11,656 nt of DNA from Calditrichaceae bacterium (GTDB taxonomy: Bacteria > Calditrichota > Calditrichia > Calditrichales > Calditrichaceae). A program made the translations under genes and the position numbers. Positions 1,444 through 11,431 of this stretch are shown piece by piece. The stretch spans positions 1 through 11,656 of the forward strand of contig JAUXGF010000028.1 in NCBI GenBank assembly GCA_030622395.1. The letters are read 5' to 3'. Under the pieces are notes generated by a model. The model saw only the letters and a program-made list of their open reading frames with translations. It was not told the DNA's origin and made no database searches. How positions within the stretch are numbered: position 1 is the first letter of the stretch; the number at the start of each line of letters is the position of its first letter.

Positions 1444-2472
1444 ATGACTGATAACCAACAAAAATATTCAGTTCGTAAATTGCATCCCGGAGAATACAAT
1501 CTCTGGGATCGTTTTATTTTTACGACAAATAGCGGAACGATCTTTCACACCACACACTGGGCGGAAATTATTCATACCGTATTCGGACGTCCTTTTAATA
1601 TACTTACCGTTTTTAAAAATGATGAAATTAACGGCGGAATCCTTTACTGGCCTAAAAACGTTCTCAAAATCAAATCATTGACTAATGTTCCCGTAACTCC
1701 TTACCAGGGAATTTTATACAAAACTTCATCGCTAAAATCTTCCGGAATAATCGCCGAATATCACCAGATTACAAACCTGCTGCTGGATGAACTTCAAAAA
1801 ACCTACGCTTATGTTGATATTCCCCTTTCTAACGGAATAATTGACGTCCGCCCCTATTTATGGAAAAATTTTACTGTTTCGCCATCCTATACCTATACTT
1901 TTAATCTTATCGACTTTGATCAGTTAAAAAATCAATTCAGCCAGGCGTTACGCAGGAAGATTAACGTTTCATTAAAGGAAAATCTTTCTGTTGTGCAGTC
2001 AGATGAAATTACTCTATTAGTAAAATTTGTGGCGGAAAGTTACAAATATCATAAAACCACTCCCCCTGTTGCTGAAGCAAAGTTACAAAAACTGTTTGAA
2101 ATTATTTTAGAACAAAACATAGGCCGGCTTTTCTACCTGAATAGTGAAGACAAGACTATTGCGGGAATCATCGTTTTATCCGATCAAAAAAAGGTTTACG
2201 CCCTATTTGCCGGGATAGACAAGAAATATCGAAACAGCCATTTTACGGAATACCTTTACGCCGATTTGATGCAGCGCCCCGAATTTACAGGAAAGCAATT
2301 CGATTTTTTAGGCGCCAATACTCAAACCTTTGAACAATTCAAACGCAGTTTTGGCGGCGAATTGGACGTCTTTTTTAATGTCGGTTATTACAAAAACAGT
2401 TATATAAAATTCTTAAGCGGGATAAGAAAACGGCAGCATATACTCAAACGCAGCATTTTGGGAAAATTTTAA
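1444..2472 (+). CDS. FemAB-like GNAT-fold acyltransferase
   Basis: A 342-residue cytoplasmic protein that looks like the FemAB-type branch of the GNAT fold (Acetyltransf_6). Such proteins transfer an acyl or aminoacyl group to cell-wall or sugar precursors. The signs are the basic segment ALRRKINVSLKEN (168-180), an AGIIVL strand (240-245) that would line the acyl-CoA or aminoacyl-tRNA cleft, and the diagnostic C-terminal block DFLGANTQTFEQFKRSFGG (287-305), matching the family pattern 'DFxGxx...FKxxFGG'. No signal peptide or membrane segment is seen. It is the first gene of the glycan cluster; its TAA overlaps the next ATG by one base (TAATG), so translation is probably coupled. The ATG at 1444 lacks a clear ribosome binding site. 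Substrate is unknown; its neighbours suggest N- or O-acylation of a surface sugar. Confidence 0.8.
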   Translation: MTDNQQKYSVRKLHPGEYNLWDRFIFTTNSGTIFHTTHWAEIIHTVFGRPFNILTVFKNDEINGGILYWPKNVLKIKSLTNVPVTPYQGILYKTSSLKSSGIIAEYHQITNLLLDELQKTYAYVDIPLSNGIIDVRPYLWKNFTVSPSYTYTFNLIDFDQLKNQFSQALRRKINVSLKENLSVVQSDEITLLVKFVAESYKYHKTTPPVAEAKLQKLFEIILEQNIGRLFYLNSEDKTIAGIIVLSDQKKVYALFAGIDKKYRNSHFTEYLYADLMQRPEFTGKQFDFLGANTQTFEQFKRSFGGELDVFFNVGYYKNSYIKFLSGIRKRQHILKRSILGKF

Positions 2473-4088
2473 TGAAACTGTATTGTTATAAAAATGAATT
2501 TATCACGCCCGCCGTACAATACACAATTGATTTTATTTTAAACAGCCTCGGTTATTTTTATGATTGGATAACAGATATTGAAACAATCCCCGAAAACAGC
2601 GTCTTAATTGTTTACGCGCCTGTTCCCCGCCCTTTTAAATTTAACGGCGGCGTTATCCATATTCCTCAAAATATAATTTTAGAAAATATAGATAAAGCAG
2701 ATTTAACCTGGCAGGAATTAGAAATAAATAATGAAGCCGTTCCTGTGATAGGAAAATCTTCAAACGTATCACTGGAGAAACATAAAAATTGCCATACCCT
2801 TCAACTGGATTTGCCGGCAAATGTTTACTTTCATCTTGCGCGCATTGAAGAATTATCTTTCACCCACCCCGACCAGGTCGACGCCGCTGTCACAAAAAGT
2901 ATTTTGTATAAATATGACAAATTCAAATTGCCGGCAGTTGATATTCTATCAAATTGGTTTAGCGGTATTATTGATAACATTTTTAAAGAAACTAATCAAA
3001 TAGTAATTAAAAAAGCCGCCTATCCCAACGGCGAAGAGTTTGGGATTGCTCTGACGCATGACGTAGATATGACGCGCGCTTATCATCCCTTAAAAAAATT
3101 CTTTATTAAACTTTTCATTAGTCTAAGTCTATATAAAAATAAAACCCGTCAAGCGCTCGATACGGAAGATCAAAACGCCTGGGGTTTTGACAGACTGCTC
3201 AATTTCTATAAACAGAAAAATTGGCGGGCTACCTTTTTTTTTATTCCCAAATACATGGAAGACGCCCATTTTAGATATAACATTAAAAGCAAGAAATTTA
3301 AAGAGCTTTTTGCTCAATTAAAAAATGATAATCATGAAATCGCCTTCCATCCAAGCCGCTATTCTTTTGATCGTCCGAAAAGATATTTAAAAGAAAAACG
3401 GAAATTGGAAAAAGCGGCAAATATAACTATCCACGGAATGCGGCATCATTACCTGCGCTGTCTTTTTCCACAAATCTGGATAATTGCCCGGAAATTAAAT
3501 TTAACATACAACGCCGGTTTAATTTACCGCAAATTCAGCGGCTTCCGCGCCGGAGCCGCCCATCCCTTCAATTGCTTTGATCATCGTAATAACGCCGAAT
3601 TAAATATTACAGAATTTTCTACCGCCTTCTTCGAAAACACCCTGCCCGGCGAAGGGAAAAATATTGAACAATCTTTGACCGTTGTAAATAAAATCATTTC
3701 ACAAGTAAAAAAATATCACGGTCTTTTAACAGCCCTCTGGCATCAAAATAATCTTTATCAGCCGGAATTGTATCCCTCTTTTTGGGACTATTTTTTAAAA
3801 TTGATAGAAAAAGAAAATGTTTTTCTGGATACACTGAACGAACAGTTGGATTGGCAGAATAAAAGAAAACAAATCCAAGTTGATAAAATCACTTATTTAA
3901 AAAACGGCTTAACCTTTGAGTTATCGTTTCCATCTAACTTAAGCCGCTTTTCACTGCTTTTCCCTTCAAATAATTTTGAAATTGAATTAGAGGATTCAAA
4001 AGTAAATTATTGTTTTAATAACAATTTTTTGATCCTAAAAAATAACGAGAGTATCAGCCGCATCACCATAAAGGCGCTGCGAAAATGA
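2472..4088 (+). CDS. Polysaccharide deacetylase-like protein (NodB-type)
   Basis: At 538 residues this is longer than a minimal NodB domain. Residues 1-180 resemble the extra N-terminal domain that precedes some deacetylases in FCB bacteria (I believe DUF7033). The catalytic barrel then shows LTHDVDM at 194-200 (general-base and metal Asp pair D197/D199), AFHPSRYS at 291-298 with metal-ligand candidate H293, IHGMRHHYLR at 320-329 carrying the Arg motif, GFRAG at 357-361 and ALWHQNN at 421-427 with H424. These match the five NodB motifs in order. Residues 470-538 look like a small beta-rich C-terminal domain. No signal peptide is seen, so it may act on a lipid- or nucleotide-linked precursor in the cytoplasm, or be exported otherwise. 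The ATG overlaps the upstream TAA by one base, and the TGA shares ATGA with the next gene. Predicted role is N-deacetylation of an amino sugar; substrate unknown. Confidence 0.85.
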   Translation: MKLYCYKNEFITPAVQYTIDFILNSLGYFYDWITDIETIPENSVLIVYAPVPRPFKFNGGVIHIPQNIILENIDKADLTWQELEINNEAVPVIGKSSNVSLEKHKNCHTLQLDLPANVYFHLARIEELSFTHPDQVDAAVTKSILYKYDKFKLPAVDILSNWFSGIIDNIFKETNQIVIKKAAYPNGEEFGIALTHDVDMTRAYHPLKKFFIKLFISLSLYKNKTRQALDTEDQNAWGFDRLLNFYKQKNWRATFFFIPKYMEDAHFRYNIKSKKFKELFAQLKNDNHEIAFHPSRYSFDRPKRYLKEKRKLEKAANITIHGMRHHYLRCLFPQIWIIARKLNLTYNAGLIYRKFSGFRAGAAHPFNCFDHRNNAELNITEFSTAFFENTLPGEGKNIEQSLTVVNKIISQVKKYHGLLTALWHQNNLYQPELYPSFWDYFLKLIEKENVFLDTLNEQLDWQNKRKQIQVDKITYLKNGLTFELSFPSNLSRFSLLFPSNNFEIELEDSKVNYCFNNNFLILKNNESISRITIKALRK

Positions 4089-5290: not shown

Positions 5291-6529
5291 GTGTTAATCC
5301 AATTAAATCATAATTTGAAAAGGGTTAGAAAACCTGCCATACTTTACTTCTCAATGATACTAAATCTATTATTAGGTTTTATTGTTACAAAAATTAACAC
5401 AACTCTGCTGTCGGTTGCAGAATATGGCATGTTTAGTCTTTGTATCAACACAATAGTTTTCACTCATGTTTTCTTTAGTTTTGGTCTCTTTGAAGCATCC
5501 TCGCGTTTAATTGCTGTGGAACAAGATAAACAAAAAACAAAAGAAATTTCAGGAACGACTATAATATTAACTGTAATTCTTGGAATATTTTTCAATTTAG
5601 CAATCCTCTGTCTTTCACAATTTTTTGACTCTATTTTCAAGATAAGAATAAACTTTTTATTGTTACTATTTTTTCCCTTTGTATTTGCGATATTATTTCA
5701 ATCTATGTTTCAAATCATTTTGCGTGGATTAGGACATATAGGTAAACTAAGCGCGTTTACTTTCTTGCCGAGATTATTTTATGTAATTTCTATATTACTG
5801 TTATCTATGCTTGGAATCTTTACGCTTAAGAACTCTATCTATGCATATTTATTAAATATCTTAGTCGTTGTTATTGCATTCATTTTTATTCTTAAACCAT
5901 CTTTTAAACATATCAAATATCATTTTAATAAATTAACCGGTGAAATTAAAAACTTCGGATCGCATTTATATATAGTAAATATTTTATCAGCTTTTTTCTA
6001 CCATATCGATAAGTTTATTATAGCTTACTTTTTGGACGTACAACAATTAGCTTTTTATTCACTTGGATTTGCATTAACCTATCCTCTTTCCCAGTTTTCA
6101 TCAGCTTTATCAATAAGTTCTTATAAAAAATTTGCTAATCAAAATTGCATTACTAAGAAATATTTATACATTAATCTAATATTTGTATTATTTCCTGCAT
6201 TACTTTTAATAATTTTCAGAAAATTTATTGTTTTAGATATTTTCTCTAAGCAGTTTTTACCAACTATCGATATAGTAACATTATTAACCATAGCTTCGGT
6301 TTTTAAAAGCTTATCCATCCCATATACAATGTTTTTTAAAGCGCAGAAAAGAGGGCGGGAAATACGCAATATAACAATAATTGTTCAAATTGTATTTTTA
6401 ATTTTAAATTTAATTTTAATACCTGCAATGGGAATTACCGGCGCTTCTATTGCGGCTGTAATTTCGTATGGATTAGATTATATCCTATACTTCTTTAAAT
6501 ATCGAAGTCTTTATCTAAAAAACAATTGA
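5291..6529 (+). CDS. Polysaccharide flippase, Wzx-like (MVF/MATE superfamily)
   Basis: A 412-residue, very hydrophobic protein with about twelve predicted membrane segments (roughly 16-34, 47-68, 88-110, 120-142, 158-176, 182-201, 225-248, 252-275, 292-310, 323-345, 361-379, 382-402). The arrangement and the opening 'KINTTLLSVAEYGMFSL' (34-50) are typical of oligosaccharide flippases that move undecaprenyl-linked repeat units to the periplasmic face. The start is GTG at 5291, with AGGA at 5280-5283 seven bases upstream; the next in-frame ATG (codon 22) lies inside the first membrane segment. It lies 81 bases after the glycosyltransferase, so it may be co-transcribed. Its DNA is visibly more AT-rich than the three genes before it, which may reflect the Phe/Ile/Leu-rich product, separate acquisition, or both. 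Confidence 0.88.
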   Translation: MLIQLNHNLKRVRKPAILYFSMILNLLLGFIVTKINTTLLSVAEYGMFSLCINTIVFTHVFFSFGLFEASSRLIAVEQDKQKTKEISGTTIILTVILGIFFNLAILCLSQFFDSIFKIRINFLLLLFFPFVFAILFQSMFQIILRGLGHIGKLSAFTFLPRLFYVISILLLSMLGIFTLKNSIYAYLLNILVVVIAFIFILKPSFKHIKYHFNKLTGEIKNFGSHLYIVNILSAFFYHIDKFIIAYFLDVQQLAFYSLGFALTYPLSQFSSALSISSYKKFANQNCITKKYLYINLIFVLFPALLLIIFRKFIVLDIFSKQFLPTIDIVTLLTIASVFKSLSIPYTMFFKAQKRGREIRNITIIVQIVFLILNLILIPAMGITGASIAAVISYGLDYILYFFKYRSLYLKNN

Positions 6530-6711
6530 CATAAACTTCCGAAATCAATTATCTGACAATATACTTAATATGCGCTGGGATGATATATATTTATGAGACA
6601 AGAATTTATTGATAATAGCAATAATAATTTTGCTGGTGTTTATGTTTCCGAAAGACGTATTATTTGTAATACTAAAATGATAAATGGTTTTTAATTGTGC
6701 TGAATGATTCT

Positions 6712-6732
6712 TTAAGGTGTAATATACCTTAA
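6712..6732. terminator. Weak stem-loop between convergent genes
   Basis: TTAAGGT (6712-6718) and ACCTTAA (6726-6732) form a perfect 7-bp stem with loop GTAATAT. It lies between the flippase and the lysozyme-like gene, where a two-way terminator would be expected. The stem is AT-rich and neither flank has a good T-run, so termination is only a guess. The surrounding 6530-6785 holds no gene I can support. Confidence 0.25.
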
Positions 6733-6780
6733 CAAATTTTATATTAAAAGTATGGGAAAATATCATACACCATTTGTATA

Positions 6781-6801
6781 AGTTCTTAAGGAACTGTTTT
6801 T
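6781..6801 (+). terminator. Possible plus-strand terminator
   Basis: AGTTC (6781-6785) pairs with GAACT (6791-6795) and is followed by GTTTTT. It has the order of a rho-independent terminator for the flippase transcript, but the stem is only 5 bp and it covers the last codons of the opposing gene. Confidence 0.2.
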
Positions 6802-7418
6802 AAATACTTAAAGACTAATTTGCCAAAAAAATTAGCTTTGGGACTGTCATTGGGTTTACGTACTTCTCCCGAGGGAAGAAACAGACCTGTTGAGTAAAGA
6901 GTACCTAAAATATCGGGACGATTTGAGATATTATGGCAAGCTCTTTCCCAATATGAAAGAATAATTCTTAGATATGCGGCTGCGTAATGTATGTTTAATG
7001 AATCGTTAAGCAGTTTATGTATTATTTCATTTGGATTTTTACTAACATTGAGTAAATCACAATATTTAATTCCCGCATAAAAAGAATTTGTAGAATCGGA
7101 AAGTGCTTTTTCAATAAAATAAGCGGTTTTTAATTTCAACTGACAAAATCCAATGGAACTATTATAACCCGATCTTGCCAGGGGGATATCTAAAGCGCCA
7201 TCCTTCCAGTCATAATTTAGAGTGCGTTCCACAAATACAACAGTCAAAAGTGTTTTTATATCAATATTAAATGATTTGGATGCAAAAGTAAAATAGGCAT
7301 ACCTTTCACTAATTTTTTTAAGAGCAGAATCAGGATGTTCAGCGAATAAATTGGATGATAATATAAAACAGACGGGGATAAATAAATATCCCCATCTATT
7401 ATTTGTTTTGTTACCCAT
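6786..7418 (-). CDS. Secreted lysozyme-like (transglycosylase-like) protein
   Basis: A 210-residue protein with a signal peptide (hydrophobic 10-25, likely cleavage after LFA at 26). The mature part shows spaced motifs that resemble lytic transglycosylase or goose-lysozyme folds: VFVERTLN (61-68) with candidate catalytic Glu64, SSIGFCQLKLKTA (87-99) like the family 'GxxQ' strand, NIHYAAAYLRIIL (142-154) like 'NIxxGAxYL', and LYSTG (174-178) like the 'YNxG' segment. If correct, it cleaves peptidoglycan glycan strands in the periplasm. Overall similarity is low, so a catalytically altered member is possible. Its ATG overlaps the TAA of the protease sorting-domain remnant (TAATG, 7420-7416) and I see no separate ribosome binding site, so its translation was probably coupled to the protease. 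The TGA at 7652 would put terminating ribosomes 234 bases upstream. Confidence 0.6.
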   Translation of the reverse strand: MGNKTNNRWGYLFIPVCFILSSNLFAEHPDSALKKISERYAYFTFASKSFNIDIKTLLTVVFVERTLNYDWKDGALDIPLARSGYNSSIGFCQLKLKTAYFIEKALSDSTNSFYAGIKYCDLLNVSKNPNEIIHKLLNDSLNIHYAAAYLRIILSYWERACHNISNRPDILGTLYSTGLFLPSGEVRKPNDSPKANFFGKLVFKYLKTVP

Positions 7419-7651
7419 TAACGTATCAAAAGCATTTTGATGGATTTGGAAAATGTTTCTTTATCTTCTTCCAATGATTGGGCGCTAAAATGAAGAATAT
7501 ATAGACCGCTGGACATATTGATTCCGTTCTCATTTTTACCATCCCAAAAATAATTGTGAATGCCGGCCGGAAGCAAATTATAGGAAACCTTTTTTACAAA
7601 TTGTCCAAGCGAATTATAAATAACGATATCAGCTTTTGAATCCTTTCGAAG
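7418..7651 (-). pseudogene. Cut-off C-terminus of the C25 protease (T9SS sorting domain)
   Basis: Translating past the TGA at 7654-7652 in the same frame gives 77 open codons to a TAA at 7420-7418. They encode LRKDSKADIVIYNSLGQ, then an 'LLPAGIHNYFWDGKNENG' block, then MSSGLYILHFS, and end in SIKMLLIR. This is the standard body of the type A T9SS sorting domain, continuing directly from 'YPNPFNPTTSIEF' upstream of the stop. No shift of frame is needed. With the TGA read as an amino acid the whole protein would be 1337 residues. One base, TCA (Ser) to TGA, explains the break. The remnant shows no other damage. Confidence 0.88.
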
Positions 7652-10600
7652 TCAAAATTCAATTGAAGTTGTTGGATTAAAAGGATTCGGATAATTAGAT
7701 GTTAAAGCATATTTATCCGGTAAAGTAGAGCTTTTATTATTTAGCAATTCATCTGAAAAAGAAGATTTTGCCAAAGAGGATTTCTTATCATTAAAATGAG
7801 ACATGGCTGATTCTGCTTCTAATGAATTAGGATATTCATGCTTCAATTGGTCAGCTGCTTCTTTGGCTTTCTCTAAATCATTCTGTTCGTTATAATAGTA
7901 CATAAACTTTTTATACAGAGCAAGTTTGGGCAAAAATGTGTCTTTGTATTCATTATAAATTTTATCACAAGAAGAAGTTAATGATTTATCGTTTTCAAAA
8001 CCAGCATATATAATATCTGAATAACCATAAAGGGATTTCTTCTCCTTTTTTGATGATAATTCAAGCAAATATTTTTTAAAAGATTCCAGATCGTAAGCGC
8101 TGCCTGGTTCGGCTTTACGGCTGGATTGCCATAAAATATCCAAAGCAAAAAAAGCCAATGATGAATCAGGGTAAAATTCCATAACATCTTTGCATATACT
8201 TTGGCTGCCTTTAATATCACCAAGCCAAAAGATATCTCTGGCGAAAATCAATTTTCGTTCCAAAGGCCATTTTGAATCATAATATTGCATATAATCTGAT
8301 TCAGATGAGAAACTATTTTCATTAGAAGAAAATTCGGAATCGTAATCCGACTCTTCCGGTGAATCGCCAGATGATTTGTTAAAAGTGGGCGGAGAAGGCA
8401 AAGCGGGAGTATAATCTATGGTAGAACCGCCGCTGGTATAAAAATCTGAACTATGAGGTGGATAATAACCCCACCAATTGAGTTCTGCCTGAACATAGCT
8501 GTTATTTATAGCTTTAATATGATAAGATGAATTGGAAGTAATTTGATTATTACCGCCATGAATTGTACATGATTCCTCCCCCAAAAAGGGATTACTTACA
8601 CTTGATGCAACACCATAAACATTATTATGAATATCATTGTTGCCATATTCTCCATAATTACCCAAATATGGAGATGAATTTGTAACAGCGATTACTCCAT
8701 AATCATGATTGTATATTTCATTACCTAAAATAAAAGGAGAAGAATTACTCAAATGAATACCGCAATAATTATTATCATGAATTGAATTATTACTTAAATT
8801 TAACCACTCGCTATTTGAATTTGAATTGTATACATAAATACCATAACTACCATTATTGTGAATTTGGCAATATGCAACTTCGGGATGTACTGTATCTTTG
8901 ATGTAAACACCAGAAAAACTATTATTAAGTAATTCAGAATTGGAAACGGTTCCGGATGAATTTGCATAAAATTGTACGCCTTTTTGCGCATATTCTATAA
9001 TTGCATGATCAATATTAGCAATACCATTTACTTTAATACCTTTCCACAATAATGTGGAACCGATAGGGCGCGTAAAAGTAACGGGTGAAGATGATGTGCC
9101 TGAAGCTGTAAGAGTACCATTTACAGTAATTAGTTTATTATATTTGAACAATATTACGGTACCAGATTCAATTGTTAAATTTACACCGCTGTTTACTGTA
9201 AGATCATCAATAACTTGAAGTTTCCCATATAATGTAATATCACTAGAAATTGAACCGCCTGTTATACCCACAAATGGCAAATAATGATCTTTGGATATGG
9301 TTACATACAAAGGCCTGATACTGGTTGTAAAGGTATAACTTGAAACGCCGCTGGCTAATAAATGATAACTTTGTCCATTATCTATGCTACAAACCGATAT
9401 ATCGCAATCCGAAACACCGGCATTGACCGTTAAATATGTGCCGCCATCAGTAACTGTTACACCCGCAAAAAAAGAAGGAGTTTGCGTCCACATTTTTGTT
9501 TCAGGACAACCGACAAGGTTGTGGGAGTAACTTAAATAGTGTTTCATTGATGTATTGTTTTGCCTGGAAACAGCTTCAGATACGCCCAGATGAAGGTTTG
9601 ACCCACCTGCTGATAATAAATCGGCAAATTTTTGGTATAATCTATATGAAGAACCTACCCATCCAAATCTTGTATTGCCTAAAAAGGCAGGACCGCCTCC
9701 TGAAAACATAGATGTAAACGCTTCCGCCAAATTACGTTGACCTGAATTAGTTTCAAAATCGTCAAATGGCATATTTTCGCAGGATAGAGAATAAACAAGA
9801 GCAGGATGGTTTGCATTATTTAGATTATCCATTCCATTGCCTGGTTCATTAGCGCCCGGCGCTATATCCAAATTGTCCCATGCACGTAAATAGGATTTTG
9901 TAGGAATATCTTTATTATACAGGTTAGCTTTACAGACCGTTGATATTGGCGAACCATGAGCGAACCAACTCCAGATAGCGTAGCGGGTTGTGTTCATTTC
10001 AGTAACCACTTCATTACCAAAAGGAAAGGTTGGGTTAGGAGCGCCGCCAGAAGGTAATTCTTTCCAAACTTCATGAGTGAACGAGCCTGGAAAATGAGTT
10101 TTAACATAATCTGGTTGTGATGTCAGTTGATCAGACGCTATCATAAATGAATTAGTTAAATATGTGACATCTCCCCTGCCCGGATTTTGTTCATAAAGGA
10201 TTACTTTTTCTGTCCAGTTAAGAATATCATCAGTAGAGGAACATAGTAAGCGTCCGACAAAAATTTCCGGCCCATAATCAGGATTATCTCCATAATTAGG
10301 TGTAGAACTATAAGGCTCACCATAGCGGATTTCGGTATCAGGATCAGCCCCATCCACATCCCAGTCGCCGTTGAAATCACAAAAATAGAGATCAGCAGGA
10401 ATTTTATACCCGTCATAGATTATACCTCCACTATGATGGTAATCCCACGTATTATGAGTCCCACATCCATAACGGATGGGCACATAATTATAATCTCCTC
10501 CCATTAAAACAAACACTGTGCCTCCACCCGTATAAGCGTCGTACAAATACTGGCGAATGGCTCCGGCATCATCGGTAATGCCGGAAATATGATCGGTAGT

Positions 10601-11431
10601 GTAATTATTTAAAATTTCTTCCACTGTGACGATTCCGGCGTCCAGACCTTTTCTCTTTTTCCAATCAACCAGTTTGCTAAAACTATTCTTTAAGGCATTG
10701 GTTGTTATAACCACATATTCATAAAAAGGCACCGGCCCGTCTGATATTTTGCTTAATCCATTTGAGCCAGTGGCATCTGGAACGTCATCGGGATTACTAA
10801 CCGCACTTTTTAACATGTTTGTGTAAAAAGCGCTTCGTTGGGCGCTGCGGTTTGTAACATGAACCGCTCCCCGCGCGCCGGAAGAATAGTCAATTTCGTA
10901 TTGAATATCCGTATGCAGGACGATTTTATTTTCTGTTGGAAAGTATTGTACCGGATAAACGGCTACGGTAACAATATGCTTATCACCATCAAACCAGTTG
11001 TGGTCGATAAGTATGACAATCTTATCAGGATAGGGAACGGCGCTTTGGTATATTTCTGATTTCGGTGGTGTAAAGGGAATGGTTATTTCTCTATCAGTTG
11101 TGGGCTGGTCGTGCTGCGCGGGGAAAAGTGCTTTTTCAAGTTTATATTCTTTTTCTGTACTCGAAATCACATGGATATTTACAGCTGTTTGATCTGAAGG
11201 GATAATCAGATTTACGTATTCAACAGGAAGTTCGGGTTCACCAGGTTGCCCTTCATTGAAAATACCTTCAAGTGTAATATGCTCATATTTTACGTCGTCT
11301 TCAGCTTTAACCTCAAATATTTCAATCTGAGAAGATCCTGGGAAATTAAAGCTGTCAGAAGCGAATAATACAGCGTTAAATAATAGCGCTGATATCAAAA
11401 TAGATAACAAATATTTTATTAGCGTTTTCAT
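7652..11431 (-). CDS. Secreted C25 (gingipain-type) cysteine protease with beta-helix, ended by an in-frame TGA
   Basis: A 1259-residue secreted endopeptidase. Order: signal peptide 1-24; gingipain-type propeptide about 35-183 (GEPELPVEYVNLIIPSD at 64-80); C25 catalytic domain about 236-650 with candidate catalytic His492 in WFAHGSP and Cys551 in YSLSCENMPFD; an Ig-like domain about 655-722; a right-handed parallel beta-helix about 730-990, full of N-N-S and G-I/V-Y turns and ending in ELNWWG; a Ser/Asp/Glu-rich linker 1018-1053; an alpha-helical, TPR-like region about 1055-1215; and the first strand of a T9SS sorting domain (NYPNPFNPTTSIEF, 1246-1259). The frame then meets TGA although the rest of the domain follows in frame. 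ATG at 11431 has GGAGA seven bases upstream. It would be moved to the periplasm by Sec, then across the outer membrane by T9SS, but without the full sorting domain export should fail. Substrate specificity cannot be read. TGA ends three other genes here, so it is a normal stop. Confidence 0.93.
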   Translation of the reverse strand: MKTLIKYLLSILISALLFNAVLFASDSFNFPGSSQIEIFEVKAEDDVKYEHITLEGIFNEGQPGEPELPVEYVNLIIPSDQTAVNIHVISSTEKEYKLEKALFPAQHDQPTTDREITIPFTPPKSEIYQSAVPYPDKIVILIDHNWFDGDKHIVTVAVYPVQYFPTENKIVLHTDIQYEIDYSSGARGAVHVTNRSAQRSAFYTNMLKSAVSNPDDVPDATGSNGLSKISDGPVPFYEYVVITTNALKNSFSKLVDWKKRKGLDAGIVTVEEILNNYTTDHISGITDDAGAIRQYLYDAYTGGGTVFVLMGGDYNYVPIRYGCGTHNTWDYHHSGGIIYDGYKIPADLYFCDFNGDWDVDGADPDTEIRYGEPYSSTPNYGDNPDYGPEIFVGRLLCSSTDDILNWTEKVILYEQNPGRGDVTYLTNSFMIASDQLTSQPDYVKTHFPGSFTHEVWKELPSGGAPNPTFPFGNEVVTEMNTTRYAIWSWFAHGSPISTVCKANLYNKDIPTKSYLRAWDNLDIAPGANEPGNGMDNLNNANHPALVYSLSCENMPFDDFETNSGQRNLAEAFTSMFSGGGPAFLGNTRFGWVGSSYRLYQKFADLLSAGGSNLHLGVSEAVSRQNNTSMKHYLSYSHNLVGCPETKMWTQTPSFFAGVTVTDGGTYLTVNAGVSDCDISVCSIDNGQSYHLLASGVSSYTFTTSIRPLYVTISKDHYLPFVGITGGSISSDITLYGKLQVIDDLTVNSGVNLTIESGTVILFKYNKLITVNGTLTASGTSSSPVTFTRPIGSTLLWKGIKVNGIANIDHAIIEYAQKGVQFYANSSGTVSNSELLNNSFSGVYIKDTVHPEVAYCQIHNNGSYGIYVYNSNSNSEWLNLSNNSIHDNNYCGIHLSNSSPFILGNEIYNHDYGVIAVTNSSPYLGNYGEYGNNDIHNNVYGVASSVSNPFLGEESCTIHGGNNQITSNSSYHIKAINNSYVQAELNWWGYYPPHSSDFYTSGGSTIDYTPALPSPPTFNKSSGDSPEESDYDSEFSSNENSFSSESDYMQYYDSKWPLERKLIFARDIFWLGDIKGSQSICKDVMEFYPDSSLAFFALDILWQSSRKAEPGSAYDLESFKKYLLELSSKKEKKSLYGYSDIIYAGFENDKSLTSSCDKIYNEYKDTFLPKLALYKKFMYYYNEQNDLEKAKEAADQLKHEYPNSLEAESAMSHFNDKKSSLAKSSFSDELLNNKSSTLPDKYALTSNYPNPFNPTTSIEF

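Follow-up and report, generated by a model that had tools for sequence, protein, structure and literature searches.

Two reports on sorting domains of the type IX secretion system (T9SS) bear on the gene described here. In P. gingivalis, RgpB whose sorting domain lacks its last two residues is inactive and stays in the periplasm (PMC11285876), and for another such domain the targeting signal is placed within the last 22 residues (PMC4804311). A different kind of precedent is the UGA readthrough of fungi and animals, which adds a C-terminal extension and relocates the product (PMC4207609). We found no literature that connects Calditrichota with type IX secretion and none that connects T9SS with stop-codon readthrough, the latter in a narrow search that is thin evidence of absence.

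The stretch of DNA analysed here (the window, 11,656 nucleotides) is the whole of contig C484, one of the 522 contigs of a 3.05-Mb draft genome that is 76.6% complete. On its minus strand, a frame of 1259 residues (11431-7652 including the stop, sense part 7655-11431) encodes, in this order, a C25 propeptide, a C25 peptidase, a beta helix, a linker and the first 14 residues of a sorting-domain motif. PF08126, PF01364, PF13229 and PF05048 all scored above their cut-offs on this frame in a family profile search, and the predicted C25 peptidase reached 130.8 bits with PF01364 against a cut-off of 23. The frame ends in NYPNPFNPTTSIEF and meets a TGA at 7652-7654 within the sorting domain, with C as the next base. 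Beyond this stop, another 77 sense codons (7421-7651, minus strand; LRKDSKAD...SIKMLLIR) supply the remainder of the Ig-like sorting domain, until a TAA at 7418-7420 closes the continued frame and overlaps the start codon of the next gene (TAATG). The chance that a random frame of the same composition stays open for 77 codons is about 0.004. Taken by itself, the post-stop piece has a match to PF13860 (FlgD_ig) at 6e-11, and in a genome-wide profile search the TIGR04183 sorting-domain match spans the TGA; read across it, the frame scores 31.2 bits against a cut-off of 23, and the post-stop piece by itself remains under that cut-off with 20.9 bits. Because both families match in this way, the split-domain arrangement is more than a chance occurrence, and the initial annotation, which had described the long C25 frame, the TGA, the 77 open codons and a sorting domain continuing past the stop, is borne out by the open reading frame listing, the sequence and the profile matches. 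With its propeptide, C25 peptidase and sorting domain, the gene resembles a T9SS cargo that carries a TIGR04183 domain of PF13860-like Ig fold at its C-terminus. Unlike such an intact cargo, however, its sorting domain is split by the TGA, and the product of the standard code stops 14 residues into the motif, without most of the domain and without an intact C-terminal end. SprA (TIGR04189), the one T9SS component that we sought, is above its cut-off on contig C510 of the same genome (671.3 bits, stretches summed).

The next gene (6786-7418, minus strand) encodes 210 residues with no family above cut-off. Its homologues adjoin a homologous peptidase or beta-helix gene in five other genomes (tblastn; L043, L044, L045, L046 and L048), in one of which only 61 residues are present, at a contig end. 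The junction between the two genes reads TAATG in the window, TGATG in G019 and TAGATG in G001, and has an ATG two bases past a TAG in G003, which is a genome of the same family as that of the window. Within the peptidase frame itself (window 11431-7655, minus strand), the C25 domain is identical to the protein P0002 at 371 of 419 positions and the beta helix at just 107 of 264, a contrast in the aligned sequences that suggests a mosaic history. The C-terminal linker module (window 7655-9400, minus strand) recurs in P0109, P0110, P0116 and P0117 with other N-terminal domains, among them PF00656 in P0116 and PF00082 in P0117.

We aligned 15 relatives at the site of the stop: four are frames from genomes, and 11 belong to the 108 proteins that the first protein search returned. 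Each of the 15 has a sense codon there and continues into the same domain, although the end of P0002 is partial; the stop itself occurs in none. The residues at this position are Ala and Gln (five each), Ser (two), Asn, His and Glu (one each). Over the tail, the closest relatives of the post-stop piece are P0003 (52 of 76 residues identical), G019 (45 of 76) and G003 (39 of 75); the first two have Ala at the stop position and the third has Gln. The codons read at five loci (GCA, CAG, GCT, GCC and AAT) each differ from TGA by more than one base. The proposal that relatives would have a residue such as Ser (TCA), a single base away, thus does not hold for the nearest two or for any of the five codons, while the comparison of the same locus in related genomes, which had also been suggested, uniformly returned a sense codon followed by the same domain rather than by unrelated sequence. 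Apart from P0001, the entry of the window itself, no sequence closer than 64% identity appeared in the two protein searches; the cluster of P0001 is listed with two member sequences on one contig. A homologue in another draft of the same family (L042, on contig C334 of G010, a genome that is 73% complete) has an in-frame TGA elsewhere, at 1997-1999, in its C25 domain.

The PNPF motif lies at most 130 residues from the end in 43 of the 123 proteins from both protein searches, and 41 of these 43 have a tail of at least 60 residues. Only two fall short of this, the entry of the window itself and P0112; the latter ends in NFPNPFNPSTTIK, one residue before the equivalent of the window's stop. P0112 shares the beta-helix, linker and motif module and differs in its N-terminal part, where a metalloprotease-like HEFGH motif was seen by eye. 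It was not found in any of the 40 searched genomes of the phylum (best match 46%), and its end may be a run-off of its contig rather than a stop.

We further compared the window with its relatives at positions that are kept in at least 80% of them. Before residue 1237 it differs from them at 14 of 246 such positions, in residues 1237-1259 at none of 11, and after the stop at one of eight. The tail is without decay, which implies that the stop is very recent, or an error, or read through. Two codons past the stop the window has Arg, where 11 of the 15 relatives have Pro; the case for a patch of errors around the stop, which could be argued from this residue, is weakened as Pro is not found in all of them.

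Nothing marks this TGA as programmed. TGA closes 49 of 236 long closed frames on 101 contigs of the genome, and in the window it ends the plus-strand genes at 4088, 5209 and 6529, just as the initial annotation had stated. (The first of these genes, 2472-4088, has DUF7033 above cut-off and the VimE deacetylase model far under its own, with 73.2 of 440 bits, and adjoins a glycosyltransferase and a polysaccharide-export-type gene.) The gene for release factor 2 (prfB, RF2) is present above cut-off, and eight weak matches to the tRNA-Sec model RF01852 all fall under the cut-off in this genome, of which 76.6% is represented. With RF2 present, no tRNA-Sec above cut-off and TGA serving as an ordinary stop, we rejected a recoding of TGA, be it to selenocysteine or by reassignment. 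The C that follows the stop had been pointed out as a leaky context for UGA; it is indeed there, but it is not special, since a C also comes after the ordinary stop at 6529. We found no unusually stable RNA fold around or after the stop: the 101 nucleotides, folded as one sequence, have a z-score of +0.93, and 165 of 200 shuffled versions fold equally well or better. A search of the genome for another copy of the segment found none, with 79% over about 60 bases for the match that scored best elsewhere, so that a donor cassette for switching was rejected as well.

Stops, with all three kinds represented, interrupt four of the 69 sorting-domain matches in this genome; the broken domain of contig C128 accounts for two of the 69. 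The four are the window (TGA) and matches on C193, C518 and C128. The domain on C193 (2246-2470) ends a different secreted-type protein and has a single in-frame TAA between two intact halves. On C518, two similar orphan sorting domains (6664-6918 and 8706-8960) are separated by about 2 kb and neither is preceded by a long gene; the second contains a TAA and is a decayed copy. The domain on C128 (5829-6058) shifts frame halfway. In a relative assembled as a single contig, a stop is present in two of 140 sorting-domain matches, of which one lies under the cut-off (4/69 versus 2/140, p 0.09), and in G003 and G010, with 185 such matches, no stop was seen among the stronger ones that were listed. 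No stop was found in 85 matches to other families of the window's genome (30 ABC and 55 receiver domains; 4/69 versus 0/85, p 0.038; p 0.20 when the count is limited to the two domains with a clean single stop). This comparison gives a weak hint that it is dispensable genes that carry the lesions, as would be the case for real mutations. A hexamer scan of 101 contigs (598 kb of the 3.05 Mb), to which frameshifts are invisible, returned 384 coding-like frame ends. Of these, 40 exceeded the score cut-offs and were judged by eye, and just two of these 40 looked split, the window and a gene remnant on C417, which argues against a high error rate. The remnant (9774-10538) is that of a WbuX-like N-acetyl sugar amidotransferase, is split by a TGA at 10164-10166 and has two small minus-strand genes directly upstream; its pieces weakly match successive parts of TIGR03573, with the N-terminal part of the model unmatched. 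Another candidate, L075, was rejected as a split gene because it is just the gene that comes next, a carbamate kinase.

The best explanation of these observations, to which we give an even chance of being correct, is an individual and very recent nonsense substitution in a gene that would normally encode a full-length, T9SS-exported C25 peptidase. The stop is present, the tail behind it is intact and the relatives have sense codons. The gene shares one stop, an intact tail and the lack of any stop in its aligned relatives with an ordinary nonsense pseudogene or allele, and differs from one in that its stop is known from a draft consensus. Against a nonsense substitution stands the distance of more than one base between TGA and the codons of the nearest relatives, so that the change would have had to pass through an intermediate sense codon. 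The main rival is an error in the consensus of this draft, metagenome-type contig, in which case the living gene would be intact and the full-length peptidase exported. We consider this a serious alternative that falls somewhat short of an even chance. An error would look the same as a real substitution, the draft is fragmented into many contigs and the tail has not decayed; in addition, the stop and the nearby Arg would be two unusual codons close together, a weak point as the Pro of the relatives is not universal. Split genes are, however, rare elsewhere in this genome, as judged from the ABC and receiver matches and from the scan, where the window had a single remnant for company. Of the four options that had been offered for the stop, these two, a sequence error and a recent nonsense mutation, fit the data.

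The other two options fare worse. Programmed or leaky UGA readthrough would yield a major retained form of the peptidase and a minor, exported full-length form, to which expression of the next gene would be coupled. It could draw on the intact, in-frame tail, on the C after the UGA and on P0112, which would be a second case of a leaky-stop sorting domain if its end were a true stop. The fungal and animal examples (PMC4207609) are alike in the UGA-C and in a coding extension with a location signal, but the stop of the window is not conserved and no downstream structure was found here. None of the aligned relatives keeps the stop, RF2 and the ordinary use of TGA speak for termination, no tRNA-Sec exceeds its cut-off, the fold is no better than that of most shuffled sequences, the other broken sorting domains of the genome are interrupted elsewhere, by TAA or a frameshift, and P0112 may merely run off its contig. 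Readthrough is consequently without positive support, and we regard it as very improbable; the specific proposal that a leaky UGA in the sorting domain produces retained and exported C25 peptidase forms, with next-gene expression tied to the exported one, seems fainter still. A population or phase variant, in which the sampled population would hold two alleles and the stop would belong to one of them, appears equally improbable to us as readthrough in general. Where two alleles coexist, a draft consensus can display just one, and there are further broken sorting domains in the genome; yet switches do not usually work by a single substitution, and with no donor copy in the genome phase variation has no visible basis in the sequence.

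If a recent nonsense substitution is the cause, the change would be an ordinary truncating mutation and not a regulatory device. RF2 would end translation at the TGA and release a product of 1259 residues that retains only the start of its sorting domain. From the truncation results for P. gingivalis (PMC11285876 and PMC4804311), we infer that this peptidase would be made and would reach the periplasm, but that the T9SS would fail to take it up for export. As the start codon of the next gene overlaps the TAA of the full frame, termination 231 bases ahead of it would also weaken the translational coupling of that gene, or abolish it.

For a draft genome, one nonsense codon is an ordinary finding and matters little in itself. 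Readthrough, if it were true, would represent a bacterial dual-location switch that acts on a T9SS signal. For genomes such as this one, where stops were met in four of 69 sorting-domain matches, counts of T9SS cargo taken from drafts should allow for broken tails.
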